The position numbers and the translations under genes were made by a program. A stretch of DNA of 64,000 nucleotides. Source: Oscillatoria sp. SIO1A7 (GTDB lineage: Bacteria > Cyanobacteriota > Cyanobacteriia > Cyanobacteriales > Laspinemataceae). Location: NCBI GenBank assembly GCA_010672965.1, contig JAAHFN010000017.1:1-64000 (forward strand), written 5' to 3'. Positions 5,637 through 25,604 of this stretch are shown here, piece by piece (position 1 is the stretch's first letter; each line of letters starts with the position of its first letter). A model generated the notes under the pieces. That model did no database searches and had not been told where the DNA came from. It was given only the letters and a program-made list of their open reading frames with translations.

Positions 5637-5743
5637 ATAGCACTACCGGTTAAGGTTAGGACAGTTACAAACGCTCTATTGCAATGATTGCAGGACTTTT
5701 GCTGACTGCTGACTGCTGATAGCTGATAGCTTACTGCTATATC
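5637..5743. repeat. Family E repeat copy
   Basis: This is a diverged copy of the TATAGCACTAC ... GCTTACTGCTATA element. Its right half is dominated by GACTGCTGA direct repeats. It lies in the 750-base gap between two plus-strand genes, which also holds HIP1 octamers near 5430-5490 and one copy of the GCGACAGCATCCC/GGGATGCTTCGCC family at about 5253-5325. No gene is seen in this gap. Confidence 0.65.
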
Positions 5744-5820
5744 GGACAGGCAGGGGGCGGGCACGGGGGCGGTGCCCGCCCCCGTGCCCGCGTAGTTGCC
5801 GCACATAATTTGGAGTCGAC

Positions 5821-5880
5821 CGTAGGACAGGCGTCTCTCTTTCCCGCTCTAAGGGACAGGCGGGACGCCTGTCCTACGGG
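5821..5880. repeat. Family B inverted repeat (GTAGGACAGGCG)
   Basis: An inverted repeat of CGTAGGACAGGCGTC with GACGCCTGTCCTACG, separated by about 30 bases. It belongs to the same family as the copies at 10869, 14788, 25720, 42455 and about 46075. It lies 90 bases before the GNAT-PIN gene. Confidence 0.75.
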
Positions 5881-5970
5881 AAGCTCAATTTTTGAGCGAT
5901 TAAATGGATTGGATATTACGCAAGAGTGTAAAATACCCCAAACCCTCGAACATCAGGAGGAGGGACAAGT

Positions 5971-8166
5971 ATGAGCGAAGAAACTGCGAGGGAAGAAACG
6001 GCGCTGAGAATTGAACCGATTGATGAGAAATCTCCTCATCTGCCAGCGGTCATTGCTCTGGGTCGCGCTAACAAGCGGACTTTGGGGCTATTTCCAGATG
6101 AGGCTTTTGTCGATCGCGCTGCCGCAAGGGAAATTTTGGTGGCAATAGCTGCCGAAGAGGAAGTATCCGGGGAAGTATCCGAGGAAAAATGCGTCGGCTA
6201 TCTGCTCTACCGAAGCGTGCCCAGTGAAAAACATATAGTTATCGTCCATCTCTGCATCGATTTGTCTTGGCGAGGTCGCGGGCTGGCAAAAAAATTGGTA
6301 GATTTCCTCAGCGAGATTACCCAAGACTATTTTTATGGCATTAAGCTCAAATGCCGTCGGGACTATGGTTTGCAGAAGATGTGGGAAAGATTGGGCTTTT
6401 TCCCTGCTAATGAAAAGCCCGGACGGAGCCGAGATGGCAAAGAGCTGACAGTTTGGTGGCGAGACCACGGACATTCCGACCTGTTTTCTTTGCTCGCCGA
6501 ACAGAAACTGGAGTCAAAGCTAGGGGCGGTAATCGATGCGAGCGTTTTCTTCGATTTGGAGAGTTCGGAGTCGGATAATTCCGAGTCGGCATCTCTGCTG
6601 GCAGATTGGTTGGAGCCAAACCTAAACTTGTGCGTGACCGATGATATATTTTATGCGGTGGATAAGATTGAAGATTCTAAACAGAGAAAAAGCCAGCGCC
6701 TATTAGCGGAGACTTTCGATCGCTTGCGCTGTTCCCAGTGGGAGTTTGAAGCTAAATTGCAGGATATAGCCGATTTTTTTGTTTCAACTACGGATAGCCC
6801 TGTTGCTAAAGCAAATATTGGGGAAACAGCCCGACGCCAGTTAGCCAGGGCAATAGCTGTGGAGACTTCTGTTTTGGTGACCCGCGATCGCAATCTTTTG
6901 GCTATAGCCGAGGCGATCGCAGCAAAATTCCATCTATCAATACTCAGTCCCACGGAACTAATTGTTAAATTAGACGAGGTTAGCCGAAAAGCCAAATATC
7001 CTCCCCAGCGCTTGGCCGGGACAAATCTGAGAATCCAAAATATCCAAAGTATCGAATCGCTACAGCCTAGTTTTATAGAAAATTTTCGCTCTCGAAGCTG
7101 CGGCGAAACCATAAAGCAGTTTCGGCAACGGCTGCATTCTTTCCAAGATAAGGATAAATGCGATCGCTCTCTGGTTTTAAACGCGGAAAATCAACCCTTG
7201 GCTTTAATAGTTTGCGATCGCCGCCACTCCCAGGAACTACAAATACCGATGATGCGGGTCAAAGGCGGAAAACTTGCTGCCACCCTCGCTCGCCATTTAA
7301 TTTTTCGCTCTGTCTCCCAGGCAGCGGATGAAAACCGGCCGTTTGTCAGAATCTCCGACCCCTACCTAGACTCCACCTGTATTGAAGCCATCCAAGAAGA
7401 TGCTTTTATCCGAGTTTCCGAGCAATATTTAAAAGTAAACTTACCCGTTGCCGCCACTGCAGAAGAGTTAGCGGAGCGTCTGTTGGTCTTAGCTCGGTTG
7501 GACTCGGACTATAATTTTTGCCAGCAATATGCCGAAACTTTAACTAGCGATCGTAGAGAGACCGATTCGATAGTAGCTGCCGAGGTAGCTGCCGAGCTAG
7601 AGAATCGCCTCTGGCCTGCGAAAATTACTGACGCACCCCTGCTGACAGCTATTGTTCCAATTAAAGCTAGATGGGCGAAAGATTTATTTGACAAAGAGTT
7701 GGCCAACCAGTATTTATTCGCCTCCACCAATAATCTGCCTCTGAAACGGGAATTGGTATATTATCGCAGCAAGCGAGCTAATGCAGGGCTAAAGCCAGGA
7801 GCGATCGGCAGAATTCTCTGGTATGTCAGCAATGATAAGAATTATTTGGGAAGCAAAGCCCTGCGAGCTTGCTCTCGACTCGATGAGGTGATAGTTGACA
7901 AGCCAGAAACCCTACACCGACAATTTAGCAATTTTGGAGTTTATAAATTACAAGACTTATTAGACCTGGCCAAGAATCAACCGAAGCAAGATATAATGGC
8001 GCTGAGGTTCAGCGATACCAAGGTTTTTGTGCGGCCCATCGAATGGGATAGGCTCAAACAAATCCTAGGGCTCCAAGCGCCGATTCAAAGTCCGATTGCC
8101 ATTTCCCCCGCTCAGTTTGATATCATCTATAATCTAGGTATCCAAAGCGAGAGGAAACTCTATTAA
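5971..8166 (+). CDS. GNAT acetyltransferase-PIN nuclease-PUA/ASCH-like fusion
   Basis: This 731-residue multidomain protein begins at an ATG behind an AGGAGG site. Residues about 10-165 form a GNAT N-acetyltransferase domain with the acetyl-CoA loop RGRGLAKK at 101-108 and the C-terminal WERLGFFP strand. Residues about 185-335 form a PIN nuclease domain: an Asp in VIDASVFF (D189), acidic residues in TDDIFYAVD, and a final TRDRN with D306. Residues about 345-460 resemble a second, degenerate GNAT-like fold. The C-terminal part (about 560-710, with LKRELVYYRSKR and LGSKALRACSRLDEV) looks like a PUA/ASCH-type RNA-binding domain. The next gene encodes a free ASCH domain, and McrB follows. The domain set points to RNA, probably tRNA, as target. 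That function is inference. All key catalytic positions appear intact. Confidence 0.75.
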   Translation: MSEETAREETALRIEPIDEKSPHLPAVIALGRANKRTLGLFPDEAFVDRAAAREILVAIAAEEEVSGEVSEEKCVGYLLYRSVPSEKHIVIVHLCIDLSWRGRGLAKKLVDFLSEITQDYFYGIKLKCRRDYGLQKMWERLGFFPANEKPGRSRDGKELTVWWRDHGHSDLFSLLAEQKLESKLGAVIDASVFFDLESSESDNSESASLLADWLEPNLNLCVTDDIFYAVDKIEDSKQRKSQRLLAETFDRLRCSQWEFEAKLQDIADFFVSTTDSPVAKANIGETARRQLARAIAVETSVLVTRDRNLLAIAEAIAAKFHLSILSPTELIVKLDEVSRKAKYPPQRLAGTNLRIQNIQSIESLQPSFIENFRSRSCGETIKQFRQRLHSFQDKDKCDRSLVLNAENQPLALIVCDRRHSQELQIPMMRVKGGKLAATLARHLIFRSVSQAADENRPFVRISDPYLDSTCIEAIQEDAFIRVSEQYLKVNLPVAATAEELAERLLVLARLDSDYNFCQQYAETLTSDRRETDSIVAAEVAAELENRLWPAKITDAPLLTAIVPIKARWAKDLFDKELANQYLFASTNNLPLKRELVYYRSKRANAGLKPGAIGRILWYVSNDKNYLGSKALRACSRLDEVIVDKPETLHRQFSNFGVYKLQDLLDLAKNQPKQDIMALRFSDTKVFVRPIEWDRLKQILGLQAPIQSPIAISPAQFDIIYNLGIQSERKLY

Positions 8167-8345
8167 CTATAATGTCCAATACCGCGCCTAACACGCTTCC
8201 CCTCTTGGGAGGGGCTAGGGGTGGGGTGTAGGGTGTAGGGTGTAGGGTGTAGGGAAACTTCATGCTATTTTCCCGATTGCTTTCGGGAGTCGGAAGTCCC
8301 TACTCTTAAGCAACCAATATCGCAACCAATATCGCACCAAATATA

Positions 8346-8774
8346 GTGGCCAACACCATCTTATTGTCCGTTCGTCCCGAATACGCCCAAAAAATTTTGG
8401 CAGGAACCAAGAAAGTAGAGCTGCGTCGGGCTCGCCCTCGCTTGGAACCGGGCGATCGCGTTTTAGTATATGTCTCCTCTCCCCAAAAAGCAGTAGTAGG
8501 GTCGTTTCAGGTAGAAAAAATTGTAGAAGAACCGCTGCCCGCTCTTTGGGAAATGGTCGAAACCAAGGCCGGGATAAGCCCGGAAGAATTTTACAACTAT
8601 TATGAAGGGGTCTCAACAGGAGTGGGAATTTTCTTTAAGGAAATCCGGCCTTTTAATCAACCCGTTGCCCTAGGGTTGTTGAGAAAAAAATGGTCTTCTT
8701 GGCGGCCGCCACAGAGCTATCGCTACATGAGCAATACAGAGTACGAGCTGGTTAGGGAACTCGGACGAGGCTAA
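8346..8774 (+). CDS. ASCH-domain protein
   Basis: This is a 142-residue protein starting at GTG. The N-terminal LSVRPEYAQKILAGTKKVELRR motif is the hallmark of the ASCH domain, a PUA-like fold that binds RNA. Some ASCH proteins act on nucleosides; for example, E. coli YqfB hydrolyses N4-acetylcytidine. The LEPGDRVLVYVSSPQKAVVGSFQVEKI segment continues the beta barrel. The gene lies 180 bases after a GNAT-PIN-PUA-like fusion and points the same way, so the two probably work together. No ribosome-binding site is clear before the GTG, and the interval carries a TGTAGGG repeat run, so separate expression is possible. Confidence 0.8.
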   Translation: MANTILLSVRPEYAQKILAGTKKVELRRARPRLEPGDRVLVYVSSPQKAVVGSFQVEKIVEEPLPALWEMVETKAGISPEEFYNYYEGVSTGVGIFFKEIRPFNQPVALGLLRKKWSSWRPPQSYRYMSNTEYELVRELGRG

Positions 8775-8832
8775 AGACGTTTGACGATCTTGGTAGGGTC
8801 TTGATATAGCGGTTCTCAAATTGATGTGAGGT

Positions 8833-9020
8833 CGCCTGGGCGAAGCATCCCAATACAGAAATTACCTTTATATAGCAGAGATGGTCAAGGGGGATGCTGT
8901 CGCCCCTACCCGATCGCTTATTACACTTATTTGAGACATGCTATATACAGCCGAGATAGTCGCTCGGGATGCTGTCGCCCCTACGTTTTCATTCGTTACA
9001 CTTATTTGAGAAACGCCATA
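8833..9020. repeat. Family C repeats (GCGACAGCATCCC)
   Basis: Two copies of the family C motif lie here. One GGATGCTGTCGCCCC pairs with CGAAGCATCCC upstream, and a second TCGGGATGCTGTCGCCCCTACG follows before the mcrB-like gene. Copies elsewhere lie near 5253, 13050, 13220, 21505, 27830, 28020 and 41265, and six tandem copies run from 50600. Short open frames here are artefacts of the repeat. Confidence 0.65.
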
Positions 9021-9081: not shown

Positions 9082-10830
9082 ATGCTTAAAGACAACGCAG
9101 AATTGATGGTGCTATTGGCAAAGTTTGCGCAATCTTATCCCGGGTCGCCAGAGGGAATTAGCCACCAAAAAGCATACAGGGAGCAGCGGAAGCAGGGAAA
9201 GCGAGTTTTTGAAGGAATTTCCGCTGCAACCAGCTCCGGCCAAGACATCGCGCCAGCAGCGGCGACGCGATTTTTGCCCGAGCTTTTGCCGCAGCTTTTG
9301 TTTGATGGGAGCTGGGAACAAGACCGCAAGCAATCTTCCTGGATTAGAATAAATCCGGGCATCGATACTGGTATAAGCGGGGCTAAGGGCGAGAGCAAAG
9401 GCGAGGGCAAAGGCGAAGATATAAAAGAATGGTTAAAAAAGTCGGGCTGGAACGAGCGGCGCAATTGGCGACAAATTGCCGGAGCCATTCTCGGCTTTCT
9501 GCACCAATGTAACGAAGACCCGAGTCAGTTGCCAGGAGCTTGCGCTTGGTTATTGCAACTGCCCTACTTCCAAAAATGTCCGGCGGGAATGCTGGTGCCT
9601 ATTCTTAATGCTTTGCAACCCGATCGCTTTTTGCTGCTGAACCATAAATCCCTCTCTGCTATCAACTATTTTACCAATAAAAACTATAGCTCGGAGCTGG
9701 CCGACTATCCCCCAGCCAATGCTAGCGGGCAAATTTTTATGTCAGCATTGGCGGTAGCAATTCAGGAGTTTACGGCAGAAGCGCTGGCAGAGTGGGAGCT
9801 ATTCGAGTTGTTCTGTCATTGGCTGGTTAGTATAGAAAAATATAACTTGGTCAGGGAATTGCCAGATGAAAGGGAATTGCCAGATGAAGGCGAAAGAAGA
9901 AGCTATTGGCAGACTTACCCGGGAGAAAATGCCAAAGATTGGGAAGATATAAGGCAGCAAAATCCCAACTATTCACTAACTGATTTGGCAGCAGAAACTG
10001 GGTTTGAGGAAGCAACCTTAGCTCGCTGGGTTCGAGGCATAGAACGTAAAAAACAAGCTATCTTATACGGCCCGCCGGGAACTGGCAAAACTTTTCTCGC
10101 CGAACGCCTCGCCCGACATTTAATCGGCGGCGGCGAAGGCTTCTGGGAATTGGTGCAGTTTCATCCCGGCTATGCTTACGAAGATTTCATCCAAGGCATC
10201 CGCCCAGCAACCAGACCCGATGGCAAGCTGGATTATCCCCTGGTTCCCGGTCGCTTTCTGGAATTTTGTGCCAAAGCGCGCTTCGCTCTTACAGATGAAA
10301 AGCCAGATGAAAAGCGCCCCAGTCTCTGCGTCTTGATTATCGACGAGATTAATAGAGCAAATCTTTCTAGCGTTTTTGGAGAGTTATTTTATTTGCTGGA
10401 ATATCGAGACAAAGAAATTGCCTTGGCTGGAGGGAGCGATAGTTTTAGCATCCCCGGCAACGTCCGCATCATTGGCACGATGAATACCGCCGACAAGTCC
10501 ATAGCTCTGGTCGATAATGCCCTGCGTCGCCGGTTTGCTTTTCTAGAGCTGTCGCCGAACTACGATATTTTGCGCCGCTATCACGCAAGAGAGCAAACGG
10601 GTTTTGCAGTGGAAGGGTTGATTGCAGCATTGCAGGCAGTGAATCGGGGGATAAGCGATCGCAACTACGAGCTGGGCATTTCTTTTTTTCTGGTTCCAGA
10701 CCTGACCGAGCAAATCGAAGATATTTGGCGAATGGAAATAGAGCCCTATTTAGAGGAGTATTTTTTCGGCAGTTACGATCGATTTAAGGAGTTTCGCTGG
10801 GATCGAGTTGGCAAAAGTATCTTGCCATAA
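9082..10830 (+). CDS. mcrB: McrB-type AAA+ GTPase of a McrBC restriction system
   Basis: This is a 582-residue protein. The C-terminal half is a McrB-like AAA+ motor: Walker A GPPGTGKTF near residue 330, Walker B LCVLIIDEINRANLSSVFGE near 415-430, and the McrB signature GTMNTADKSIALVDNALRRRFAF near 463-485, including the arginine finger region. McrB uses GTP to translocate DNA and works with the nuclease McrC in type IV restriction of modified DNA. The N-terminal 300 residues do not look like the known E. coli DUF3578 methylcytosine reader. They probably form a different specificity domain, partly helical, with an Asp/Glu/Gly-rich linker. McrC lies 2.6 kb downstream on the same strand instead of directly adjacent. 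The gap holds a structured RNA and repeats. Confidence 0.9.
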   Translation: MLKDNAELMVLLAKFAQSYPGSPEGISHQKAYREQRKQGKRVFEGISAATSSGQDIAPAAATRFLPELLPQLLFDGSWEQDRKQSSWIRINPGIDTGISGAKGESKGEGKGEDIKEWLKKSGWNERRNWRQIAGAILGFLHQCNEDPSQLPGACAWLLQLPYFQKCPAGMLVPILNALQPDRFLLLNHKSLSAINYFTNKNYSSELADYPPANASGQIFMSALAVAIQEFTAEALAEWELFELFCHWLVSIEKYNLVRELPDERELPDEGERRSYWQTYPGENAKDWEDIRQQNPNYSLTDLAAETGFEEATLARWVRGIERKKQAILYGPPGTGKTFLAERLARHLIGGGEGFWELVQFHPGYAYEDFIQGIRPATRPDGKLDYPLVPGRFLEFCAKARFALTDEKPDEKRPSLCVLIIDEINRANLSSVFGELFYLLEYRDKEIALAGGSDSFSIPGNVRIIGTMNTADKSIALVDNALRRRFAFLELSPNYDILRRYHAREQTGFAVEGLIAALQAVNRGISDRNYELGISFFLVPDLTEQIEDIWRMEIEPYLEEYFFGSYDRFKEFRWDRVGKSILP

Positions 10831-13049: not shown

Positions 13050-13310
13050 GGATGTAGGGGCGACAGCATTCCCGAGACAGCTTGTGCTATTAAATAAAAA
13101 ATTATTATATTGGAATGCTTCGCCCCAGAAACCCATGCAGCCCACCAATCGCCTCAAAAAAGAAGATTATAAAACTACCCACACTTCCCACATTTGGAGT
13201 TGCCGGCGAGCAGCATAAATTTCTGGGGCGAAGCATTCCATTTTATAAATTTAGTCTAAAGCACAAGCTGTCTCGGAAATGCTGTCGCCCCTACGCCTTA
13301 TTTCGAGGGT
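13050..13310. repeat. Two family C repeats flanking a CCCTCTGC run
   Basis: GGGGCGACAGCATTCCCGAGACAGC pairs with GGAATGCTTCGCCCC, first at about 13058-13125. The arrangement occurs again inverted at about 13222-13295, where CTGTCTCGGAAATGCTGTCGCC reappears. A nearly identical two-copy layout lies at 27826-28060. From 13355 a run of CTGCCCCTCTGCTCC repeats extends to the mcrC start and can mislead start-site calls. Confidence 0.65.
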
Positions 13311-13431
13311 CGGTCGTGGCCAAAAAACATCATCAAATATAAAAAACATACCTCTACTCCCTGCCCCTCTGCCCCTCTGCTCCCTGCCCCTGCCCCTCTG
13401 CTCCCTGCCCCTCTGCTCCCTGCCTCTTCCC

Positions 13432-14682
13432 ATGCCCAATTCTCAATTAAAAATCATCGAACTCGTTGAGCATCAACCCCAGACGATCGCCCGGGAAGAA
13501 ATGCCCCAAGGGGTGGTGGAGGAGCTGAGGGCAAAGTATGGCAGTGCGGTGAAGGTGGAGCTAAAAGATAGTAAAACTGGCGATCGCTGGCAATTGCTGA
13601 ATCGAGGCTGGGCGGGCTATATCCCTTTAACTCCAGAACTGGGGCTAAGACTCCAACCCAAAGTGCCCCTCAAAAATATTTTTGGGATGCTGGAGTATGC
13701 CTATCAGCTCAAAAGTTTTCAAATTCTCCAAGGGTTGATGGATTGCCAATCTCTAGAGGAATACTGCGATCGCCTCGCCGGTATTCTCGCCCGCAATGTT
13801 TCCGATCGCCTTGCTAAGGGACTCTATCAAGCCTATCTGCCCAAAACAGACAAGCTGGCAGGAGTTCGCGGACGCCTAGACTTGCAACAAGCAATTCGGG
13901 AACCTTGGCAAGTGAAGCTAAAGTGCTATTATAATGAGAGAACTGGAGATATTGAAGAAAACCAAATATTGGCCTGGACGTTGCATTGCATTGCTCGCGC
14001 CGGTTTGGGTCGAGAAGAAACGCGCTTGGCAGTATTAAAAAGCGATCGCGCTTTACAAGGGTTCGTCACCTTGCGTCCTTTTAGCCCTAAAGATTGCAGC
14101 GGACGGCAATACCATAGGCTCAATTACGATTACCAGCCGTTGCATGCCTTGTGCCGATTTTTTTTGGAGCATCTCGGGCCGAGTCACGAAATTGGCGATC
14201 GCGAGATTTTTCCCTTTCTCGTTGACATGGCCAAACTCTACGAACGCTTTGTGGCTGAATGGCTAAAAACGCACTTGCCCCCGAGCTACTATCTCAAATT
14301 TCAGGAGCGAGTAGATATTGGAGCTAGCAAAGCCGTTCGGTTTCGCATCGACTTAGTTATCTATCATAATTCTAATGCTGGTTATCCTACTCGCGATCGT
14401 AATTCTTTTCGCAATACTCCTTATTGTATTGTAGATACAAAATACAAACTGCAACTTTCTGCGAGCGACGTGACTCAGGCGATCGCCTATGCAGTTTCTA
14501 AAACTTCTCCCTTAGCGGTCTTGGCCTACCCAGCGCCTTCAAGGCAACCTCTAGACGAATGGGTTGGCAATATTCGGATTCGCAGTATAGTTTTTTCTTT
14601 AGATGGAGACTTGGAAAAAGCGGGGCAAGCTTTTTTATCAGATTTGTTAGATCGAATCCGGTTAAACAGTTACAGTTTGTAG
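13432..14682 (+). CDS. mcrC: McrC-type PD-(D/E)XK nuclease of a McrBC system
   Basis: This is a 416-residue protein, counting from the ATG at 13432 (MPNSQLKIIELVEHQPQTI). The open frame extends further upstream, but only through low-complexity CCCTCTGC repeats. McrC binds the McrB ring and cuts DNA. The N-terminal region matches the McrC beta domain (TGDRWQLLNRGWAGYIPLTPELGLRLQPKVPLKNIFGMLEYAY). The nuclease core carries RFRIDLVIY near residue 305 and YCIVDTKYK near 333, which give the D...DxK of the PD-(D/E)XK fold. Both are intact. Its partner McrB is encoded 2.6 kb upstream on the same strand. The separation suggests either independent expression or insertion of repeats and an RNA gene into an older operon. 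Confidence 0.9.
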   Translation: MPNSQLKIIELVEHQPQTIAREEMPQGVVEELRAKYGSAVKVELKDSKTGDRWQLLNRGWAGYIPLTPELGLRLQPKVPLKNIFGMLEYAYQLKSFQILQGLMDCQSLEEYCDRLAGILARNVSDRLAKGLYQAYLPKTDKLAGVRGRLDLQQAIREPWQVKLKCYYNERTGDIEENQILAWTLHCIARAGLGREETRLAVLKSDRALQGFVTLRPFSPKDCSGRQYHRLNYDYQPLHALCRFFLEHLGPSHEIGDREIFPFLVDMAKLYERFVAEWLKTHLPPSYYLKFQERVDIGASKAVRFRIDLVIYHNSNAGYPTRDRNSFRNTPYCIVDTKYKLQLSASDVTQAIAYAVSKTSPLAVLAYPAPSRQPLDEWVGNIRIRSIVFSLDGDLEKAGQAFLSDLLDRIRLNSYSL

Positions 14683-17217: not shown

Positions 17218-17853
17218 TCATTTGGCGTTCTTTTCCTGCTTCGACGTATCCGACCCACCGAGGCAGGACGTTGGTTTGATGCTCCACAGGCTGACACGGG
17301 AGAGCTTCCCGCCTTCGCGCTTATTAATCGCTGCGTTCCAATCGCGGTCTAGGAAAAATCCACAGTTAGGACAGATAAACGTTCTATCTCGCAACTTCAA
17401 TTCTTTATGGATATGACCGCAATGGGAACAAGTTTTAGATGACGGATAGAACCTGTCAACTATCGTTAATTTGCTGCCGTACCACTGGCACTTGTACTCT
17501 AACTGGCGGCGAAACTCGTAAAAACCGCCATCCGCTATAGCTTGTGCCAAGCGATGATTTTTCATCATGCCGCTAACATTCAAGTCTTCAATTACTACCT
17601 CGCTGTGGTTTTTAGCAAGGTAGGTAGTTAGTTTGTGCGTGGCATCGTTTCTGATACAAGCAACGCGGTAGTGCGCCTTTTGCAGCCTCAAGAGCGCCTT
17701 TCTACGATTATTAGATCCTTTGACCTTCCGACTAACAGACCGCTGCAACCGAGCGATTTTTCGTTTGGCTTTGCGGTATGCCTTTACTGCTGGGAAGGTC
17801 TTGCCATTACTTACGGTCGCCAGGGTTTTTATTATAATTTTTGCAATAATCAA
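17218..17853 (-). pseudogene. N-terminally truncated TnpB (IS200/IS605 family)
   Basis: The frame keeps about 211 residues of a protein normally near 400. It begins inside the RuvC-I segment: IKTLATVSNGKTF is present, but the catalytic Asp of the preceding GIDLG is lost. It retains the RuvC-II block VVIEDLNVSGMMKN, the zinc ribbon CSHCG...CPNCG, and RuvC-III DRDWNAAIN. It therefore cannot cut DNA as written. No tnpA neighbour and no clear element end hairpin is seen on either side. The apparent start is a TTG with no ribosome-binding site. It sits between ubiB and the tRNA-Ser/RNA ligase block and marks an old insertion point there. Confidence 0.85.
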
Positions 17854-18083: not shown

Positions 18084-18169
18084 TGGCGGAAGATGGAGGA
18101 ATCGAACCCCTACGGTCGCCCGTACCCTGGCTTTCGAGACCAGTTGCCATCCATTTAGCAGCATCTTCC
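18084..18169 (-). tRNA. tRNA-Ser (anticodon CGA)
   Basis: The acceptor stem GGAAGAT/ATCTTCC is perfect. The anticodon loop is CTCGAAA, giving CGA for UCG codons. The variable arm is long, as expected for Ser, the T loop is TTCGATT, and a G discriminator is followed by an encoded CCA. It looks fully normal. It lies downstream of the RNA ligase gene, apart from the main tRNA array. Confidence 0.9.
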
Positions 18170-18172
18170 ATA

Positions 18173-18441
18173 AAAATTAGGGTGTGGGGTGTGGGGTGTA
18201 GAGTGTAGGGTATGGGGTGTAGGGTGTGGGGTGTAGGGAAACAGAGAGGGGGAAGACAAGGGAGATGGGGAATACAAGGGAGATGGGGAATACAAGGGAG
18301 ATGGGGAAGCAAGAAGAAAAGAGAAAAACTATTAATTTTCTGCACCCTAATTTCTCCCCACACCCTACACCCCACCCCCTACACTCTACACCCCACACCC
18401 TACACCCCACACCCTACACCCTACACCCTACACCCTAATTA
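18173..18441. repeat. G-rich heptad hairpin element
   Basis: The left part reads AATTAGGGTGTGGGGTGTGG and continues in GGGTGTA heptads. The right part is the complementary CACCCTACACCCC series ending CACCCTAATT, so the ends are inverted copies. The loop holds GGGAGATGGGGAATACAA in three direct copies. A similar heptad hairpin lies at 60189-60313. It separates tRNA-Ser from the RNA ligase gene. Confidence 0.7.
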
Positions 18442-18446
18442 AAACC

Positions 18447-19730
18447 CTAACTAATGGCTTTTTGCTGATACCATTGTTTTGCCTCCTTGGAGATAGCTTT
18501 ACTTACCTGCCTCCAGGTTAAGTTAGAGCTTTCTAGCTCTGCAGAGCTTTCTTTTTGAATATCAATAGCAATCCATTTCAAAAAGTCGCCTATTTTTTTG
18601 ATGTCAAAGTCTCCATTGCAGGTTTCTGTGGCCGCCTGTTCTAAGCGAGCTGGAGTCAGAAATAAATTGACAAACTCTTCAATACTGTTGGCGGTCTCGG
18701 GGTCTATTTGCACCGGCTGCTTTATTTTGACAACCCGATGCTTTTCGCCTTTGACTTTAAAGAGCAGTTCGGAATAGGCCAGCCGTTCCACTAGGCCGTC
18801 GGCTTCCGGGTACATTACTAAACCTTCTCCCAAACCGGCAATGCCAAAGTTTTCTTTAACCCAAGGGTCGCTTTTTTCTACATCCTCAATGATTTGATTG
18901 AGGGTAGCCGCAGATTCTTGTAATTGGTCGGTGTCCCCAAAGTCGAGAGCGATCGCTTCGCCGTAAAAAGGCAGGACAAAAATATCTGGATGTTCCGGGA
19001 GAAACTGGCGAATTTGCTCTGGCCTGATTTCCAGGTTGGCAATCTTGCCCTCGGTTCCCCCGAATTGGATGGCAAAAATAACGAATATTCTGCGGTCTAT
19101 TTGGGAGATTGCCGTGCGTTTTTGAATCCCTTGACCGCACCATTCGCCAAATAAGGTAATATGTTCTGCGATCGCCAGGTTGGCAAAATAATCTATATTT
19201 TGACTGACCCAACCGGCAAATCCGGCGTTGTCGCTTTGGGGAGTAATTATCTGAGTTCGGCTTTGGACGGCAACTCGGCGATCGCTAAAAATCTGTACCC
19301 CACCATTAGTTCCGTCTAGTTTAATCTTGGCACGATAGGTTACTTTAGGCGTTTCTCCCAACTGTTCCAAGCTGCGCCGCACGTTATGCAACAGTTCTAT
19401 ACTCGGCCAGCTTTGGAGCTTTACGGATTTTTGTACCTGTTTTTGGCAATAACCTTCCGACAAATCGGTGCCAACGGATTCGTCAACTTTTCCCAAAGCC
19501 ATACCAAAGGATTGAATGCCGCGAATTTTAGCAGGCTTGATTTTGGTGCCATCTTTGAGAAGGGAATCAGCTAAGGCGATCGCTACCGTATCCCCTACTT
19601 CATAAACATTCTCTAGGTTGGCAACAATTGGCACCCGCTCGTAACCGGGAGCCTCCATACTATAAAAGCGCAAGGCATCGGCATTGGGATGTTTTTCTGC
19701 GCTTTCGACTTTCATCGCAATTACAGGCAT
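18447..19730 (-). CDS. RNA ligase with N-terminal tRNA-binding-like (EMAP/OB) domain
   Basis: This is a 427-residue protein behind a strong AAAGGAGG site. Residues about 1-100 resemble the EMAP-type tRNA-binding OB domain (VESAEKHPNADALRF and IRGIQSFGMAL). Residues about 130-345 carry the covalent nucleotidyltransferase motifs of RNA ligases: motif I KLDG with catalytic Lys137, a motif III-like LFGEWCGQGIQ, motif IV EGLVMYP and motif V LLFKVKGEKH. Such enzymes use ATP to join 3'-OH and 5'-phosphate RNA ends; relatives include T4 Rnl2 and mitochondrial editing ligases. The C-terminal 80 residues are helical and unassigned. The gene lies directly downstream of an eleven-gene tRNA array on the same strand and just upstream of tRNA-Ser. 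This makes tRNA a likely substrate, but that is inference. Confidence 0.85.
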   Translation of the reverse strand: MPVIAMKVESAEKHPNADALRFYSMEAPGYERVPIVANLENVYEVGDTVAIALADSLLKDGTKIKPAKIRGIQSFGMALGKVDESVGTDLSEGYCQKQVQKSVKLQSWPSIELLHNVRRSLEQLGETPKVTYRAKIKLDGTNGGVQIFSDRRVAVQSRTQIITPQSDNAGFAGWVSQNIDYFANLAIAEHITLFGEWCGQGIQKRTAISQIDRRIFVIFAIQFGGTEGKIANLEIRPEQIRQFLPEHPDIFVLPFYGEAIALDFGDTDQLQESAATLNQIIEDVEKSDPWVKENFGIAGLGEGLVMYPEADGLVERLAYSELLFKVKGEKHRVVKIKQPVQIDPETANSIEEFVNLFLTPARLEQAATETCNGDFDIKKIGDFLKWIAIDIQKESSAELESSNLTWRQVSKAISKEAKQWYQQKAIS

Positions 19731-19832
19731 GGTTAAACTCCTCCTTTAACGAGAAATGGGAATTGGGAATTGGGCATTGGGCATTGGGAATAGGTTGAAT
19801 TTTTAAGTTGATATTTTTAAAGCTTCAATTCC

Positions 19833-19924
19833 AGGACTTACGCATTAGACCTATATCTGGTAGGGGTCAACGGCCGTTGACCCCAAAACTTAGGGCGCAC
19901 CTCTACAAGCCGCGCGTAAGTCCT
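19833..19924. repeat. Family A element (92 bp)
   Basis: AGGACTTACGCA at 19833 and GCGTAAGTCCT ending at 19924 bound a centre with the GGGGTCAACGGCCGTTGACCCC palindrome. It lies between the RNA ligase gene and the tRNA array. Confidence 0.75.
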
Positions 19925-20016
19925 AAATTCAAAACTCAAAACTTAAAATTCAAAATTAAAAACTTAAAAGCCCTCGCGTACAAGTTGCCGGAGCGATCGC
20001 GTTCTTGACTGTAAAA

Positions 20017-20086
20017 CGGGAGTGGTAGGAATCGAACCCACAAGGAGGTAGAAGCTCCGTACTCTATCCAGTTGAGTTACACTCCC
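20017..20086 (-). tRNA. tRNA-Arg (TCT), short
   Basis: Acceptor GGGAGTG/CACTCCC, D arm ACTC...GAGT, anticodon loop CTTCTAC (UCU, for AGA), T loop TTCGATT, discriminator G. The gene is only about 70 bases, because the variable loop is reduced to about one base between the anticodon stem and the T stem. One end pair of the anticodon stem is mismatched. CCA is not encoded. It is the last gene of the array. Confidence 0.75.
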
Positions 20087-20247
20087 AATTCCATTGGGCA
20101 TCGGGCATCGGGAATGGGGCATTGGAAGTGTGGGGAGTGTGGGAAGTGTGGGGAGATAGGGGAGAAGGGAGAGTTTTCACTTCTAGTCCTTCCCACACCT
20201 CCCACACCTCCGACACCTCCCACACTCCCATGTCTCCTTGTCTCCAT

Positions 20248-20322
20248 TGGTAGCGGGGGTAGGAGTCGAACCTACGAAAATCAGCTTATGAGACTGACAA
20301 GCCACCGTGGCTTATCCCCGCT
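20248..20322 (-). tRNA. tRNA with CAT anticodon (Met or Ile2)
   Basis: Acceptor AGCGGGG/CCCCGCT, anticodon loop CTCATAA, T loop TTCGACT, discriminator A and encoded CCA. The first base pair is A-U, so it is not a normal initiator by that criterion alone. It could be elongator Met, or Ile if C34 is modified to lysidine; the sequence does not decide. Confidence 0.8.
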
Positions 20323-20347
20323 TCGTAACCAATAACCCTGACACCAA

Positions 20348-20422
20348 TACCCCTGGCAGGACTTGAACCTGCAACCTCCAAATTCTAAGTTTGGCGCCTC
20401 GTTCCTATTGGGCTACAGGGGC
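20348..20422 (-). tRNA. tRNA with TAG anticodon (Leu) lacking a long variable arm
   Basis: Acceptor GCCCCTG with CAGGGGT (the end pair is G-U), anticodon stem CCAAA/TTTGG, loop CTTAGAA giving UAG for CUA Leu codons, T loop TTCAAGT, discriminator A, no encoded CCA. The variable loop is only five bases (AGGTT). Bacterial tRNA-Leu normally has a long variable arm, so its charging identity is uncertain. Confidence 0.7.
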
Positions 20423-20432
20423 AAATTTTCGA

Positions 20433-20508
20433 TACTCCTGGCGGGAGTCGAACCCGCAATAAAAATCGATTTTAAGTCGACCGCGTCTGCCAATTCCGCC
20501 ACAGGAGC
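20433..20508 (-). tRNA. tRNA-Leu (TAA) with a shortened variable arm
   Basis: Acceptor GCTCCTG/CAGGAGT, a Leu-type D arm (TGGCGGAATTGGCAGACGC), anticodon loop CTTAAAA (UAA), T loop TTCGACT, discriminator A, no encoded CCA. The variable region is only TTTTATT. It has no group I intron, unlike the usual cyanobacterial trnL(UAA). This is therefore probably an accessory copy. Confidence 0.75.
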
Positions 20509-20638
20509 TAGTTATAGCAGTAAGCTATTAGCTGTCAGCAGTCAGCTAAAGTCCTGCCATACGCACTATTTGCCTTTTGTAACTGTCAAACAGCTTAATT
20601 GCTAGTGCTATAAGATTTGGCCGCTACATAAGATAAAA

Positions 20639-20713
20639 CTGAGGAGGCAGGAGTCGAACCTGCATTGTTCCGCTGTCAAAGAGCGGTGCCATACCCAATT
20701 AGGCGACTCCTCA
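20639..20713 (-). tRNA. tRNA-Gln (TTG)
   Basis: Acceptor TGAGGAG/CTCCTCA with the U1-A72 pair typical of Gln, anticodon loop CTTTGAC (UUG), T loop TTCGACT and discriminator G. It looks functional. A family E repeat separates it from the next tRNA downstream. Confidence 0.85.
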
Positions 20714-20734
20714 ATGAAAATCTATGACGGTTAA

Positions 20735-20780
20735 AATATGGATGCCGGGACAGGGTTAAACCTGACGCGCTAACCACAGC
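20735..20780 (-). pseudogene. Possible tRNA remnant
   Basis: On the minus strand, directly 3' of tRNA-Phe, is a D-arm-like GTGGTTAGCGCG joined to a T-arm-like CAGGTTTAACCCTG with no anticodon arm between. It reads like a tRNA that lost its middle. It may also be chance. Confidence 0.35.
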
Positions 20781-20854
20781 CCCCCAAGGTCGGAATCGAA
20801 CCGACGACCTCCTGTGCTTCAAACAGGCGCTACTACCAACTGAGCTACTGGGGG
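20781..20854 (-). tRNA. tRNA-Phe (GAA)
   Basis: Anticodon stem CCTGT/ACAGG with loop TTGAAGC gives GAA. The D arm GCTCAGTTGGTAGTAGC and T arm GTCGG-TTCGATT-CCGAC are good. The acceptor pairs CCCCCAG with CTTGGGG and so contains a mismatch at the fifth pair unless a bulge is allowed. G37 in place of the usual A37 is unusual for Phe. Confidence 0.75.
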
Positions 20855-20919
20855 AAGATTTGCATAGCAAATTGTGTTGCAACAGCTAAATATTCCTCAT
20901 TTATAGGACAAAATATTGA

Positions 20920-21004
20920 CGGAGAGGACAGGATTTGAACCTGCGTCGATTAAAACCGATCGGCCTTTCCAAGACCGCGCCTTAAACCACTCGGCCACCT
21001 CTCC
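20920..21004 (-). tRNA. tRNA-Ser (GGA)
   Basis: Acceptor GGAGAGG/CCTCTCC, anticodon loop TTGGAAA (GGA), a long variable arm of about 16 bases, T loop TTCAAAT and discriminator G. It looks fully functional. Confidence 0.88.
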
Positions 21005-21011
21005 CAATTGA

Positions 21012-21107
21012 CGAGAGCGGAGGGATTTGTTGGCGGAGCCTTCAAGGGAGAGTACCCCCAACCTCGGTTTTGGAGACCGAGATGTTAGCCAATTACACCA
21101 CGCTCCC
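21012..21107 (-). tRNA. tRNA-Trp (CCA) with an expanded T loop
   Basis: Acceptor GGGAGCG/CGCTCTC, D arm, and anticodon loop CTCCAAA (CCA) are intact, and the discriminator is G as expected for Trp. The T stem strands GGGGG and CCCTC are separated by about 30 bases instead of 7. The usual T loop begins with T and ends with AAT, but about 23 extra bases lie between (starting ACTCTCCC and containing GGCTCCGCC). It is either a pseudogene or needs removal of the insert to work. Confidence 0.65.
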
Positions 21108-21151
21108 AAAATTTAATTCATAATCCAATATCTCCAATTAAACTAACTTAA

Positions 21152-21234
21152 TAGGCCGGGCAGGATTCGCACCTGCAATGCAATAAAGCGGGGGTTTTAC
21201 AGACCCTTGCCTGCACTAATAGGCGAGCCGACCC
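21152..21234 (-). tRNA. tRNA-Tyr (GTA)
   Basis: The anticodon loop is CTGTAAA (GTA). It has a long variable arm as in bacterial Tyr tRNA, discriminator A, and acceptor GGGTCGG with CCGGCCT. The T loop is TGCGAAT, with G in place of the nearly universal pseudouridine-55 position. The D loop is also slightly unusual. Confidence 0.78.
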
Positions 21235-21378
21235 AAGCAACAAGGGAAATTTGAGAATAGAAAAGATCTAGAACTATAGTTCCAAAACGCTATGAATGCT
21301 AAATTGGCAGGACTTTGACTGAAAGCTGAAAGCTGAAAGCTGAAAGCTGAAAGCTATATCTATTCTCAATTTCCATAA

Positions 21379-21465
21379 CGGAGAGGGAGGGATTCGAACC
21401 CTCGACGGCTTTTAAACCGCTCTTTCTTAGCAGGAAAGTGCCTTCAACCGCTCGGCCACCTCTCC
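21379..21465 (-). tRNA. tRNA-Ser (GCT)
   Basis: Acceptor GGAGAGG/CCTCTCC, anticodon loop CTGCTAA (GCT), long variable arm, T loop TTCGAAT, discriminator G. It looks fully functional. A family E repeat lies between it and tRNA-Tyr, and a family C repeat lies upstream at about 21505-21590. Confidence 0.88.
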
Positions 21466-21697
21466 ATATAGCATTTCTCAAATAAACGTACCGAAGGAAA
21501 CGTAGGGGCGACAGCATCCCCCTTGACCATCTCGGCCGTAGAACGGTAACCCCCGTAATGGGATGCGCGGGCCCCAGAGACCTCACATCAATTTGAGAAA
21601 CGCTATAGATAGATATTTCGCAAATGAATTGCGGTCTATGCAGCCCGGATGTTGATTTATAGGTTTAATGCGATTTGCATTAAACCTATCAACCAAA

Positions 21698-21769
21698 TAG
21701 CCCCAGAGAGATTTGAACTCTCGTTTCCGCCTTGAGGGGGCGGCGTCCTAACCCCTAGACGATGAGGCT
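21698..21769 (-). tRNA. tRNA-Glu (CTC) with C33
   Basis: Acceptor AGCCTCA/TGGGGCT (with wobble pairs), anticodon stem CCGCC/GGCGG, loop CCCTCAA. With the stem fixed, the anticodon is CUC (GAG) and position 33 is C, where U is nearly universal. T loop TTCAAAT, discriminator A. It resembles Glu in the D arm (TCTAGGGGTTAGGAC). It is the first gene of the array. Confidence 0.72.
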
Positions 21770-22502
21770 TTATCGGTTATAGCAGTAAGCACTCAGCGGA
21801 GCATAAGCTGACCTCTGACCGCTGAGAGCTGACCGCTATATGGGTGCGATCGGGGATAAGCCAAGGGGCCATACCCACGCAGACATCCAACAATCAATCG
21901 TTAAATGGCCAATTACCTATTCAGTTATCAAGGTTCGCTCAGCAGGTTTGGAGAAAAGCCTTTTTGGTTTTCCCGTTCCCTCCTATATTTATATACTACA
22001 CGCATACTACAAAACTGTCAAGGGGTTTGAGAAATTTTTTTATTTTTTCCTGGAGAAGGGGGGATAATGCCGTAAAAAGTATTGCTATATATAGCTTTAG
22101 GCCATTAAAATATTTTTAGCAAGCTCAGGAGCGAGCCACGGAAAGACTGTACTACAAAAAGGCCCTTAAATGATGAGTTTTTTGCATCGAAACCATCGAA
22201 ATAAAGAAATCATTAAATTCAGTAGAGAAAAGTCCAGATCTTATCGGTAAAAAACGTTTATTATGAGGGGTATCATACCACATAGCGAAGGACCAGAAAA
22301 ATAGTCCTCAATACTAGAGCGCTCGTTTCCTAAGATGCAATGCTTATATTTTGGCTTGACCGATACTGCCAGAGATGGTTGTATTACTGATATTGCTAGG
22401 GATGGCGGCCTTATAAAAAGAATTGGGAAGGGACGAACCGAAGCTTTGGGATAGAGCGACAATGAGGTCCGTTTGAAAGATTAGCTCTAAGAGGTTTAGA
22501 TC
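21770..22502. other. Intergenic region upstream of the tRNA array
   Basis: It begins with a family E repeat at about 21780-21838. Beyond that I see no convincing open frame, tRNA or terminator. The part from about 22080 to 22500 is AT-rich, unique-looking sequence. It could hold the promoter of the array on the minus strand and that of the next plus-strand gene. Confidence 0.4.
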
Positions 22503-22997: not shown

Positions 22998-23393
22998 TTA
23001 ATCGACTTCCTCAAGTAGAGAGACTCCGGAGCGAGCTTCTTGCCAGCATTTGAGGATGTAGAATTCAGCGCGATCGCGCAGAGAAGTTACAAAGACTCCT
23101 TCATCAGCCTCAGAATCTGCTGCCAGCCAAGTACCTCGCAGACTGACTTCAACATACTCCGCATCAGCGATACAGACGGCGATGGTCTCGCTTTCATCCC
23201 GAAGAGCCTCGGCCTCCAGATTTTCTAGACCGGGCAAATTTGCAGGCAGCAAAAACGATGCCTGGGTTGGTTCTACGACAAGCCTTTGTCCAACTCGCAT
23301 AGCCACTATTGTTCGCCCGGTCACCAGCTCCTCAAGGGAGCGAGCCAGATGCTCTAGGTTAAAACTGTTTTCGGTATATGTGAACTTCAGCAT
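22998..23393 (-). CDS. Conserved cyanobacterial protein, possibly alr0857 family
   Basis: This is a 131-residue acidic soluble protein with a GGAGG site before the ATG. It starts MLKFTYTENSFNLEHLARSLEELV and contains RTIVAMRVGQRLVVEPTQASFLLP, then a mostly beta C-terminal half ending in a Trp/Cys-rich YILKCWQEARSG segment. I associate this pattern with a cyanobacteria-only family without known function. The family name is from memory and uncertain. It follows the HNH endonuclease gene on the same strand after an 84-base gap, so the two may be co-transcribed. Confidence 0.7.
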   Translation of the reverse strand: MLKFTYTENSFNLEHLARSLEELVTGRTIVAMRVGQRLVVEPTQASFLLPANLPGLENLEAEALRDESETIAVCIADAEYVEVSLRGTWLAADSEADEGVFVTSLRDRAEFYILKCWQEARSGVSLLEEVD

Positions 23394-23476: not shown

Positions 23477-24004
23477 TTACTTTTGTTGTCCTTGCTGTTC
23501 TTGCCAAAACTGTTCTGCGAAGGCAACCGCCGGATGAATTGGTGCCCGTGGTTTGATCTGCAGTGGCATTCCAGCTTCTTCAGGAGTGCGATCGCCTTTG
23601 CGGGAGTTGCAATTGTTGCAAGCAATGACGACGTTATCCCAGGTGTGAGTGCCACCTCTTGATTTGGGCAGGACGTGATCCAGAGTTAGATTTTTGGTAG
23701 CGCCGCAGTATTGGCATTTATTGCGATCGCGCCGCAATACTTCTCGTCGATTCACCGGGGGAACCCTCCAAATCCGCTCCGTACCTGTCATGGTGAGGCG
23801 AATATGTTCTGGCACCTGGAGAACCAGACTGGCAGAGCGAATTTTCCATCCGGTCTCGCTTCCGAGGCCGACCAAATCTATAGGTTCTGCTTTGCCGGTT
23901 ACCAGCAGCGCGATCGCTCGCTTGATATTTACCCGACTAATCGGCAGGTAATTTTTAGAAAAAACCACCACCGATTTCCTTAGTACGTCAGTTACGCTTG
24001 TCAC
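23477..24004 (-). CDS. HNH endonuclease
   Basis: The protein is about 175 residues from the GTG at 24004, which has an AAAGGAG site 8 bases upstream; the longer frame to 24163 lacks such support. The C-terminal HNH domain has CQYCG, then the LTLDHVLPKSRGG block with the catalytic Asp-His, the N of WDNVVIACNNCNSRKGDRTPEEAGM, and two CxxC zinc knuckles. The N-terminal part (VFSKNYLPISRVNIKRAIALLVTGKAEPID) is standard for the cyanobacterial HNH proteins of this type, which are widespread and not clearly mobile. The probable role is a DNA nuclease of unknown target. A hairpin lies in its leader. Confidence 0.88.
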   Translation of the reverse strand: MTSVTDVLRKSVVVFSKNYLPISRVNIKRAIALLVTGKAEPIDLVGLGSETGWKIRSASLVLQVPEHIRLTMTGTERIWRVPPVNRREVLRRDRNKCQYCGATKNLTLDHVLPKSRGGTHTWDNVVIACNNCNSRKGDRTPEEAGMPLQIKPRAPIHPAVAFAEQFWQEQQGQQK

Positions 24005-24026
24005 GACCTTGACTCCTTTATAAAAT

Positions 24027-24059
24027 AGCCCCCACTTCCGTCGGTCAGAAGCGGGGGTC
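24027..24059 (-). promoter_or_regulatory. Leader hairpin before the HNH gene
   Basis: AGCCCCCACTTC and GAAGCGGGGGT form an interrupted stem around CGTCGGTCA, about 10 bases upstream of the HNH ribosome-binding site. On the minus strand TATTTTATAAAGG follows. It could attenuate transcription, or it could be the end of a vanished IS605-type element. Confidence 0.4.
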
Positions 24060-24463
24060 CCTAAAATCTGATTAGGCTCTTTTCGTCCTATGTCGGTACA
24101 GCAGCAGCACCCTGTACCTCCCGCTTCTTTTATTTTTTTGTGGCCGTTCCTCGGGAAGACCACCGGCTGATTCCAAGTTATTTTTAATTTCTCTGGCTCT
24201 AAAGTCTCCAGAGCTGTAGCATCCTAAGCCTTTGTACCCATGCCAAAACCATCTCACCAGGTCCGCATTTGAATGATGGACGCGATAAGTCATATCCGCC
24301 ATCGCATTGGTACAACTGGCGGTATATCTGGCGCAAAGCCGTCTTAGGGACGAGATGGGTGAAAAGCTCACGGGTATCCTCTTTGAAGGCCGCTACTTGA
24401 ATCCTACAAAAAACATACTACACTAATATTACAGATATGTCTACCCATTTGAGGAAAAAAGTT

Positions 24464-24799
24464 ATGCGCGCAATCACTCGAATCCCAACCACTGAAATGG
24501 AAGTGACCAGCATCAGGTTAGAGAGGACCCTCAAAGAGCAGCTCAAAACCCTCGCAGGCAATCAAGGATATCAAGCGCTAATTCGAGACGTTCTATGGAA
24601 ATACGTCCAGCATCAGTCAAATGATTATCGACCTCAGTTTTCGCGATCTGATATTCGAGCAAGTATGGAGGCGATAGCTCAGCAAGAGGAACAGTGCGTC
24701 CTGACAGGCAAGTTAATTCGACCACGGGAACCGATGTTATTGGGATTGACAATTAGCGGCGAGATGGTGCCCATCAGTCTCGGGAGTATGGCTGGTTAG
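24464..24799 (+). CDS. Small ribbon-helix-helix-like protein
   Basis: The protein is about 111 residues from the ATG at 24464, which has GAGG nine bases upstream; an ATG at 24437 is in frame but unsupported. The start MRAITRIPTTEMEVTSIRLERTLKEQLKTLAG has the strand-helix pattern of ribbon-helix-helix DNA-binding proteins (VTSIRLERTLKEQLK). After a helix (YQALIRDVLWKYVQH), the C-terminal third contains CVLTGKLIRPREPMLLGL, of unknown role. I take it for a conserved cyanobacterial small regulator or structural protein. It is divergent from the HNH gene. Confidence 0.65.
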   Translation: MRAITRIPTTEMEVTSIRLERTLKEQLKTLAGNQGYQALIRDVLWKYVQHQSNDYRPQFSRSDIRASMEAIAQQEEQCVLTGKLIRPREPMLLGLTISGEMVPISLGSMAG

Positions 24800-25008: not shown

Positions 25009-25257
25009 CTAGCCCGCCACCTCTGAAGCCCCATTTGCACAAGAGAAAGAGCGATTGTGCGATCGCTCTTTCTCTTGCAGATTACTCATGCCAAAAAAAG
25101 TCAGCCAGGAGCTGCCGATTTCCAATGCCCAATGCGAACATGCCCAATGCCCAATGCCATTCCCGGCTTCTTTGCTCGTGAGGACACCGTGACCCATCGC
25201 TCGAAGAAATTCTATAACTGGACGAGGAAAGTTTTCATCGGTATAAAAACGTGCCAT
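25009..25257 (-). pseudogene. Truncated DUF5615-type (PIN-like) toxin
   Basis: The first 33 residues, MARFYTDENFPRPVIEFLRAMGHGVLTSKEAGN, match the start of DUF5615/Mut7-C-type PIN-like proteins, including the TDENF catalytic Asp. The frame then runs into GGCATTGGGCATTGGGCAT-type repeats and reads GIGHWACSHWALEIG, which is not family sequence. The rest of the domain, including the LTxNRRDF part, is absent from all frames nearby. The ATG overlaps the stop of the DUF433 gene (TAATG). The toxin half of the pair is therefore broken by repeat insertion with deletion. Confidence 0.8.
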
Positions 25258-25604
25258 TAAGCTATCTCGCCTTCCTGCATAACTTCGTCGTTTTCGCGAA
25301 TGGCTTGTTCGATTTCCTCTGGATATGCCTCAGCATAAGCCCAGGCATTTACTACATCTGCTGCAGTAAGATGCGGAAAAGCTTCTAAAATCTGGGCATC
25401 GCTTGCACCTATACGACGGTAATTCACTAAAGACCAAACGGGTATGCGGGTTTTGGCAATACAAGCATCGCCACCCACAACCCCAGGAGTTTTGCTAATA
25501 CCTCGCGAGTTGTGAATAAAGCTTTCGATTAAAATCTGAATTACTTCCACCTTCTCGGCCTTAGTCAAGGCTAGGATTTCGTTTTCTAATTGTTTGACAG
25601 TCAT
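25257..25604 (-). CDS. DUF433-domain antitoxin
   Basis: This is a 115-residue protein behind a GAGG site. Residues about 35-95 form a DUF433 domain (TPGVVGGDACIAKTRIPVWSLVNYRRIGASDAQILEAFPHLTAADVVNAWAYAEAYPEEIE), a winged-helix-like fold that serves as antitoxin and autorepressor partner of DUF5615 PIN-like toxins. The N-terminal 30 residues (KQLENEILALTKAEKVEVIQILIES) are helical. The gene is intact. Its partner, which overlaps its stop codon, is truncated. It now has no toxin to neutralise unless one is encoded elsewhere. Confidence 0.85.
   Translation of the reverse strand: MTVKQLENEILALTKAEKVEVIQILIESFIHNSRGISKTPGVVGGDACIAKTRIPVWSLVNYRRIGASDAQILEAFPHLTAADVVNAWAYAEAYPEEIEQAIRENDEVMQEGEIA

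Follow-up and report, generated by a model that had tools for sequence, protein, structure and literature searches.

A predicted tRNA-binding RNA ligase within a supernumerary tRNA array under a putative TrcR operator in the cyanobacterium Oscillatoria sp. SIO1A7

In this study, we analysed a stretch of 64,000 nucleotides from Oscillatoria sp. SIO1A7 (assembly GCA_010672965.1, contig JAAHFN010000017.1, positions 1 to 64,000; hereafter, the window), in which a compact array of tRNA genes lies beside the gene of a predicted ATP-dependent RNA ligase. It corresponds to contig C79 in a genome of 9.08 Mb assembled in 182 contigs. We consider it likely that this locus is a supernumerary tRNA operon (L-array) that is repressed by the ribbon-helix-helix protein TrcR and includes the ligase as an RNA-repair enzyme. 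The original prediction, made from the sequence, was that the locus could supply and repair tRNAs attacked by an anticodon nuclease, in a defence setting. The idea of supply and repair is well supported by the conserved linkage, the operator, and the non-housekeeping nature of the tRNA set; an anticodon nuclease is a candidate trigger, and the defence setting is not supported. Neither of the two outcomes named in advance as refuting the prediction, array tRNAs as sole genomic copies and ligase homologues unlinked to tRNA genes, was obtained.

The minus strand of the window carries 12 tRNA genes (Table 1), of which 11 are packed into 1753 bp (20017–21769) and Ser(CGA) lies separately beyond the ligase gene (18084–18169). 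ARAGORN called ten of them at the positions originally predicted, all on the minus strand, and Rfam contributed two more, the Arg gene (46 bits) and a weak Trp-like element; together with reading of the sequence, these calls confirm the predicted order of an 11-tRNA array, the ligase, and Ser(CGA). Rfam bit scores were good for Leu-UAG (62.8), Ser-GCU (61.1), and Glu (58) and poor for Met (33.7), Tyr (29.5), and Trp (28), suggesting that some array tRNAs may be decayed. Short repeats of the GGGTGTAGGGTGTG type flank the ligase gene (18176–18440 and 20124–20236) and cause spurious microRNA matches in Rfam.

The array had also been suspected not to be the main housekeeping set, and the genome-wide tRNA list bears this out. 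Approximately 45 further tRNA or tRNA-like genes are located elsewhere in the genome, and Glu-CTC is the only array isoacceptor without a housekeeping counterpart. Identity within these array/housekeeping pairs is just 44–76%, indicating that the array is no recent duplication. Leu-UAA is present twice, with a group I intron in the housekeeping gene and none in the array copy, and short variable loops replace the long arm in the Leu tRNAs of the window array. The Leu genes in related arrays are mostly 74–78 nt and are without the long variable arm typical of bacterial tRNA-Leu.

In Anabaena, TrcR represses a trn operon of 26 tRNAs, rtcB, and other genes through a motif that overlaps or lies near the −10 box, and antibiotics that target translation induce the trn operon (PMC10272220). 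In the window, a TrcR-like open reading frame (ORF) is encoded 2.4 kb from the array promoter on the same contig, among neighbours that match those of the Anabaena trcR locus. This ORF has no Pfam match of its own, and its ribbon-helix-helix identity was assigned by reading. Starting translation at 24464 places the helix-B Leu at residue 44, the residue altered in the Anabaena L44P mutant, and the operator at −49 to −32 of trcR; the Anabaena operator footprint extends from −53 to −28 (PMC10272220). Tandem GTAGTAT half-sites forming a putative TrcR operator (21993–22010) also lie over the array promoter. The whole genome (9 Mb) has only six perfect GTARTAYNNNNGTAGTAT boxes, at rtcB, the array, trcR, a Ro60-like/tRNA-like RNA locus, a small ORF, and an ORF named SDR-like by reading. 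Allowing one mismatch gave 15 matches against 5 for a reversed control pattern, and one-mismatch boxes were therefore not relied on. TrcR-like promoters (TTGACAGTTTTGTAGTAT...) also precede a small ORF without a family match (L211, C124:20655) and a stretch without an obvious gene (L213, C1:179262). With dense codirectional tRNAs beyond the housekeeping set and a putative TrcR operator at its promoter, the window array appears, by sequence, to be an L-array.

The ligase ORF is intact. Pfam matched its residues 7–82 to tRNA_bind (PheRS/EMAP type, 1.6e-7) and its residues 134–311 to RNA_ligase (2.3e-11), and the protein also matched phrog_548 (1.2e-48). Sequence searches left its assignment to Rnl2 or Rnl5 undecided, and profile and fold searches helped. 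A profile built from 36 homologues matched T4 RNA ligase 2 (Rnl2; 2hvq, E 1.4e-17) over residues 3–301 of 335 of the T4 enzyme. Lys137 (active site, KLDG), Glu302, Lys325, and Lys327 are invariant across the 36 homologues, and the Rnl2 motifs I (KxDG), III, IV (EG), and V (KxKG) are all intact. An AlphaFold2 model (pLDDT 90) contains a C-terminal helical domain of the Rnl2 type (helices 344–426), and its pTM of 0.62 makes the relative placement of the domains uncertain. The best match in a fold search with this model was the Naegleria RNA ligase; T4 Rnl2 was also found, as was PheRS for the N-terminal part. The window ligase thus shares the nucleotidyltransferase motifs and the C-terminal helical domain with the Rnl2 family and differs from T4 Rnl2 in its extra N-terminal tRNA-binding OB domain of the PheRS/EMAP type. 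It shares an OB domain N-terminal to the nucleotidyltransferase domain with Rnl5 enzymes (Deinococcus DRB0094 and the Naegleria RNA ligase), but it scores only 15.8 bits against the TIGR02306 cut-off of 151.15 and has the extra Rnl2-like C-terminal domain. The predicted layout, an Rnl5-like N-terminal part joined to an Rnl2-like C-terminal part, is unusual. No PADLOC model was matched by the ligase at 1e-3, and the PLSDB plasmids contain no full-length relative, with a weak partial match at most.

It is quite improbable that the role of the ligase is to mature or circularise the transcripts of the array and not to repair damage. Such a role would suit its co-location with tRNA precursors, and an archaeal RNA ligase does circularise small RNAs (PMC12153264). 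However, ARAGORN found no introns in the array tRNAs, the ligase profile matches the nick-sealing Rnl2, and no circular product is known here.

Conserved linkage between the ligase and tRNA arrays was found among several hundred genomes of the class, whose assemblies are fragmented. There are 29 ligase copies in 28 cyanobacterial genomes; 16 sit within arrays of up to 37 tRNAs, and the tRNAs are codirectional with the ligase in all 16. The tRNA order is broadly common to the arrays, although the ligase is inserted at no fewer than eight different tRNA-tRNA junctions (e.g., Lys/Met, Gly/Val, Arg/Arg, Arg/Ala, Ala/His, and Thr/Ser). Ligase-bearing arrays are distributed over eight families in at least two orders, and all cyanobacterial ligases form one clade (98/94) amid phage sequences in the phylogenetic tree. 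The spread and the tree are consistent with horizontal transfer. Of 13 ligase-bearing arrays with readable upstream DNA, 12 have one or more exact half-sites within 600 bp, behind a TTGACA-like box, and these 12 are spread over at least two orders; the background rate for even a single half-site in random stretches of 600 bp is 6.6%. Among stand-alone ligases, a half-site lies within approximately 60 bp upstream in 5 of 12, against an expected total of approximately 0.3.

Several observations weigh against a TrcR-repressed repair operon. Stand-alone copies make up 13 of the 29 ligases, 9 of them forming one clade drawn mostly from one family. One cluster of related genomes supplies approximately half of the ligases found in arrays, so neither the linkage counts nor the operator counts represent independent cases. 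In two array ligases (G230 and G588), the tRNA-binding domain is absent from the matched part. In the window itself, repeats occupy both stretches flanking the ligase, where terminators are possible, and the array looks partly decayed, with 12 tRNAs against 19–37 in most well-assembled relatives. In addition, the same genome has a second, 97%-identical ligase gene with neither an adjoining tRNA array nor a TrcR box. This copy (L062:5135–6418, contig C6) is 97.3% identical in DNA across the gene plus 36 bp only. Its region contains a DNA methylase, helix-turn-helix genes, a nearby tRNA-Lys(CTT), and a putative integrase-like ORF identified by reading, without a family match.

An alternative is that tRNA arrays act as recombination hot spots and gather cargo, with the ligase functionally unconnected to the tRNAs. 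In support of such hitch-hiking, the ligase gene alone (plus 36 bp) is common to the array and another element, and HNH genes, TnpB, a PIN-domain gene, and unrelated ORFs are likewise found in ligase-bearing arrays. The orientation of the ligase nevertheless agrees with the tRNAs in every array that bears it, whereas TnpB, some HNH genes, and one macro family are antisense to them, and the TrcR operator is independently present at stand-alone ligases. We regard hitch-hiking as improbable.

A stronger competitor, in our judgement still rather unlikely, is that a phage- or plasmid-derived array and ligase, domesticated or selfish, replace and repair tRNAs that host anticodon nucleases have cleaved. 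The cyanobacterial ligases are one clade inside phage diversity, and the fusion of a tRNA-binding domain to the ligase occurs in large phage contigs (L084–L088) at 44–49% identity. Within 3 kb, the EMAP-ligase L084 (316 kb) has 3 tRNAs, and the more distant phage ligases L109 and L135 (402 kb phage contig) have 12 and 14. These phage ligases belong to the same superfamily, and the tRNAs near them are codirectional. Phage tRNAs and RNA ligases have been proposed as counter-defences (PMC7824862 and PMC10264068). Against anti-defence cargo, the operator is that of a host repressor whose gene lies beside the array, the contig looks chromosomal, stand-alone ligases bear the same operator, and no phage genes were recognised adjoining the array.

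We propose the following sequence of events for the TrcR-repressed operon. TrcR, encoded next door, would occupy the operator of tandem GTAGTAT half-sites, which overlaps the −10 box, and keep the operon silent. Failing translation would lift the repression, and the spare tRNAs and the ligase, presumably co-transcribed, would be produced. Guided by its PheRS/EMAP-type OB domain, the ligase may then reseal broken tRNAs or other RNAs with 3'-OH/5'-phosphate ends. VapC-type PIN toxins are one candidate source of such ends. Another is AriB, which produces 3'-OH/5'-phosphate ends (PMC12409363). ATP-dependent ligases of this kind require 5'-phosphate ends (PMC7824862) as well as 3'-OH ends, and RtcB acts on 3'-phosphate and cyclic-phosphate ends (PMC7824862); rtcB, in the same regulon, would therefore seal the opposite end chemistry. 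In the same genome, a perfect TrcR box lies 28 bp ahead of the rtcB ORF (L207, C1:190136–190153; L222), whose RtcB identity is confirmed at 2.8e-127.

Ro60 with Y-like RNAs is probably also a member of the regulon. Locus L068 (C172:105000–116000) has a perfect TrcR box at 4599, four tRNA-like elements at 5737–7066, and an ORF at 7460–8896. Pfam and PDB sequence searches miss the Ro60 likeness of its protein, whereas the 13 best PDB matches of the protein model are to Ro60/Rsr (best E 3.6e-13). Homologues occur in 30 of 59 relatives, approximately 25 of them with 1–5 tRNA-like elements upstream; these often have odd anticodons and a spacing of approximately 166 bp and are candidate tandem Y RNAs. 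We dropped a wider claim, that the Ro60 loci of many species carry a TrcR box, because many GTAGTAT sequences there lie approximately 39 bp ahead of a tRNA-like unit and may belong to the repeat; tandem half-sites at Ro60-like loci were found only in the Oscillatoria genome and in L255.

ADP-ribose genes are present in 8 of the 16 ligase-bearing arrays (PARG-type in 2, macro in 5, and NADAR in 4), namely, L063, L065, L195, L223, L225, L228, L229, and L231, where some macro genes are antisense to the tRNAs. Arrays make up an estimated 0.1% of the DNA of the 16 genomes and hold 4 of their 24 NADAR genes. The window array has no PARG, macro, or NADAR gene, and no kinase was recognised in ligase-bearing arrays. 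ADP-ribose domains have been tied to RNA repair and ADP-ribosylation conflicts (PMC9503650), and a PARG-like family (TIGR02452) belongs to the Anabaena TrcR regulon (PMC10272220). As the regulon unites the array and ligase, rtcB, and probably Ro60 with Y-like RNAs, it points to a dispersed RNA-damage response. We tentatively extend this, at somewhat less than even odds, to a TrcR-controlled cyanobacterial response that combines replacement tRNAs, two ligases that complement each other in end chemistry (RtcB and the tRNA-binding Rnl2-like enzyme), a particle of Ro60 and Y RNA, and the removal of ADP-ribose by PARG, macro, and NADAR, with mobile tRNA arrays as portable kits.

Table 1 Features of the window discussed in the text
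Feature	Position	Strand	Basis
ATP-dependent RNA ligase (predicted), 427 aa	18447–19730	−	Pfam, profile and fold searches
Ligase OB/tRNA_bind domain	19485–19712	−	Pfam, model
Ligase nucleotidyltransferase domain	18798–19331	−	Pfam, model
Ligase C-terminal helical domain	18453–18701	−	Model
Strong Shine-Dalgarno AAAGGAGGAG ahead of ligase	19738–19747	−	Sequence
Array promoter TTGACA-N17-TAGTAT	21993–22021	−	Sequence; similar layout in 12/13 ligase-bearing arrays
tRNA-Glu(CTC)	21698–21769	−	ARAGORN, Rfam
tRNA-Ser(GCT)	21378–21466	−	ARAGORN, Rfam
tRNA-Tyr(GTA), weak	21151–21235	−	ARAGORN; 29.5 bits
tRNA-Trp(CCA)-like, T arm degenerate	21031–21107 by reading (Rfam element 21013–21107)	−	Rfam tRNA-Sec model, 28.3 bits; anticodon by reading
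tRNA-Ser(GGA)	20920–21004	−	ARAGORN, Rfam
tRNA-Phe(GAA)	20779–20855	−	ARAGORN, Rfam
tRNA-Gln(TTG)	20638–20714	−	ARAGORN, Rfam
tRNA-Leu(TAA), short variable arm, intronless	20433–20508	−	ARAGORN
tRNA-Leu(TAG), short variable arm	20347–20423	−	ARAGORN
tRNA-Met/Ile(CAT), weak	20248–20322	−	ARAGORN; 33.7 bits
tRNA-Arg(TCT)	20017–20086	−	Rfam, 46 bits; anticodon UCU by reading
tRNA-Ser(CGA), CCA encoded	18084–18169	−	ARAGORN
TrcR-like ribbon-helix-helix repressor	24464–24799 (ORF listed from 24437; 24464 start preferred)	+	Reading, position, neighbours
Putative TrcR operator of trcR promoter, GTAATATTAGTGTAGTAT	24415–24432	−	2 mismatches to published motif; chance 0.01 per window
HNH endonuclease (counterpart of Anabaena alr0856), divergent from trcR	23477–24163	−	Pfam HNH; position as in PMC10272220
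alr0857 family protein	22998–23393	−	NCBIfam NF045647, 166.7 bits (cut-off 75)
GNAT-containing protein	5971–8166	Opposite to array	
ASCH protein	8346–8774	Opposite to array	
McrB-like	9082–10830	Opposite to array	
McrC	13279–14682	Opposite to array	

The defence setting had been proposed from GNAT, PIN, ASCH, and McrBC genes near the array. The GNAT/ASCH and McrBC genes are real, but they are on the opposite strand, 3.4–12 kb from the array and beyond a putative ABC1/UbiB-like ORF identified by reading, with no sign of coupling. Since nothing connects them to the ligase, we dropped the reading of the locus as a defence island, and its regulation points to TrcR instead. The GNAT and ASCH pair (5971–8774) resembles the PADLOC candidate PDC-M11, with the McrB-like and McrC genes next to it. 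A TnpB/OrfB-type transposase fragment (17218–17853) lies immediately downstream of tRNA-Ser(CGA), and a DUF433-DUF5615 pair (25009–25604), whose partner is short and PIN-like, is likely a toxin-antitoxin system.

The window array has in common with the trn operon/L-array of Anabaena sp. PCC 7120 (26 tRNAs) a codirectional supernumerary array, a TrcR operator over the −10 box, and tRNAs diverged from the housekeeping set (PMC10272220). In contrast to the Anabaena operon, it carries an RNA ligase, adjoins trcR on one contig, and is shorter. The Salmonella rsr-yrlBA-rtcBA operon, controlled by RtcR, likewise brings an RNA ligase, Ro60, and a tRNA-like RNA into one regulon (PMC7790460), but in Oscillatoria dispersed loci share a TrcR box in place of a single RtcR operon, with replacement tRNAs and one more class of ligase in addition. 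L-arrays, TrcR control, and Rnl2 ligases are each already known separately. Our literature search found no paper tying such a ligase to L-arrays; the main L-array paper and an RNA-repair survey were outside this comparison, and the novelty is therefore provisional.

What large tRNA arrays do in bacteria is still a matter of debate. The location of a ligase within such arrays, under an operator common to the tRNAs and rtcB, suggests that breakage of RNA is part of the stress to which the arrays respond. Judging from its domains, the enzyme is a natural RNA ligase probably aimed at tRNA. Its recurrent pairing with tRNA arrays in many cyanobacteria suggests a portable kit to replace and repair damaged tRNAs.

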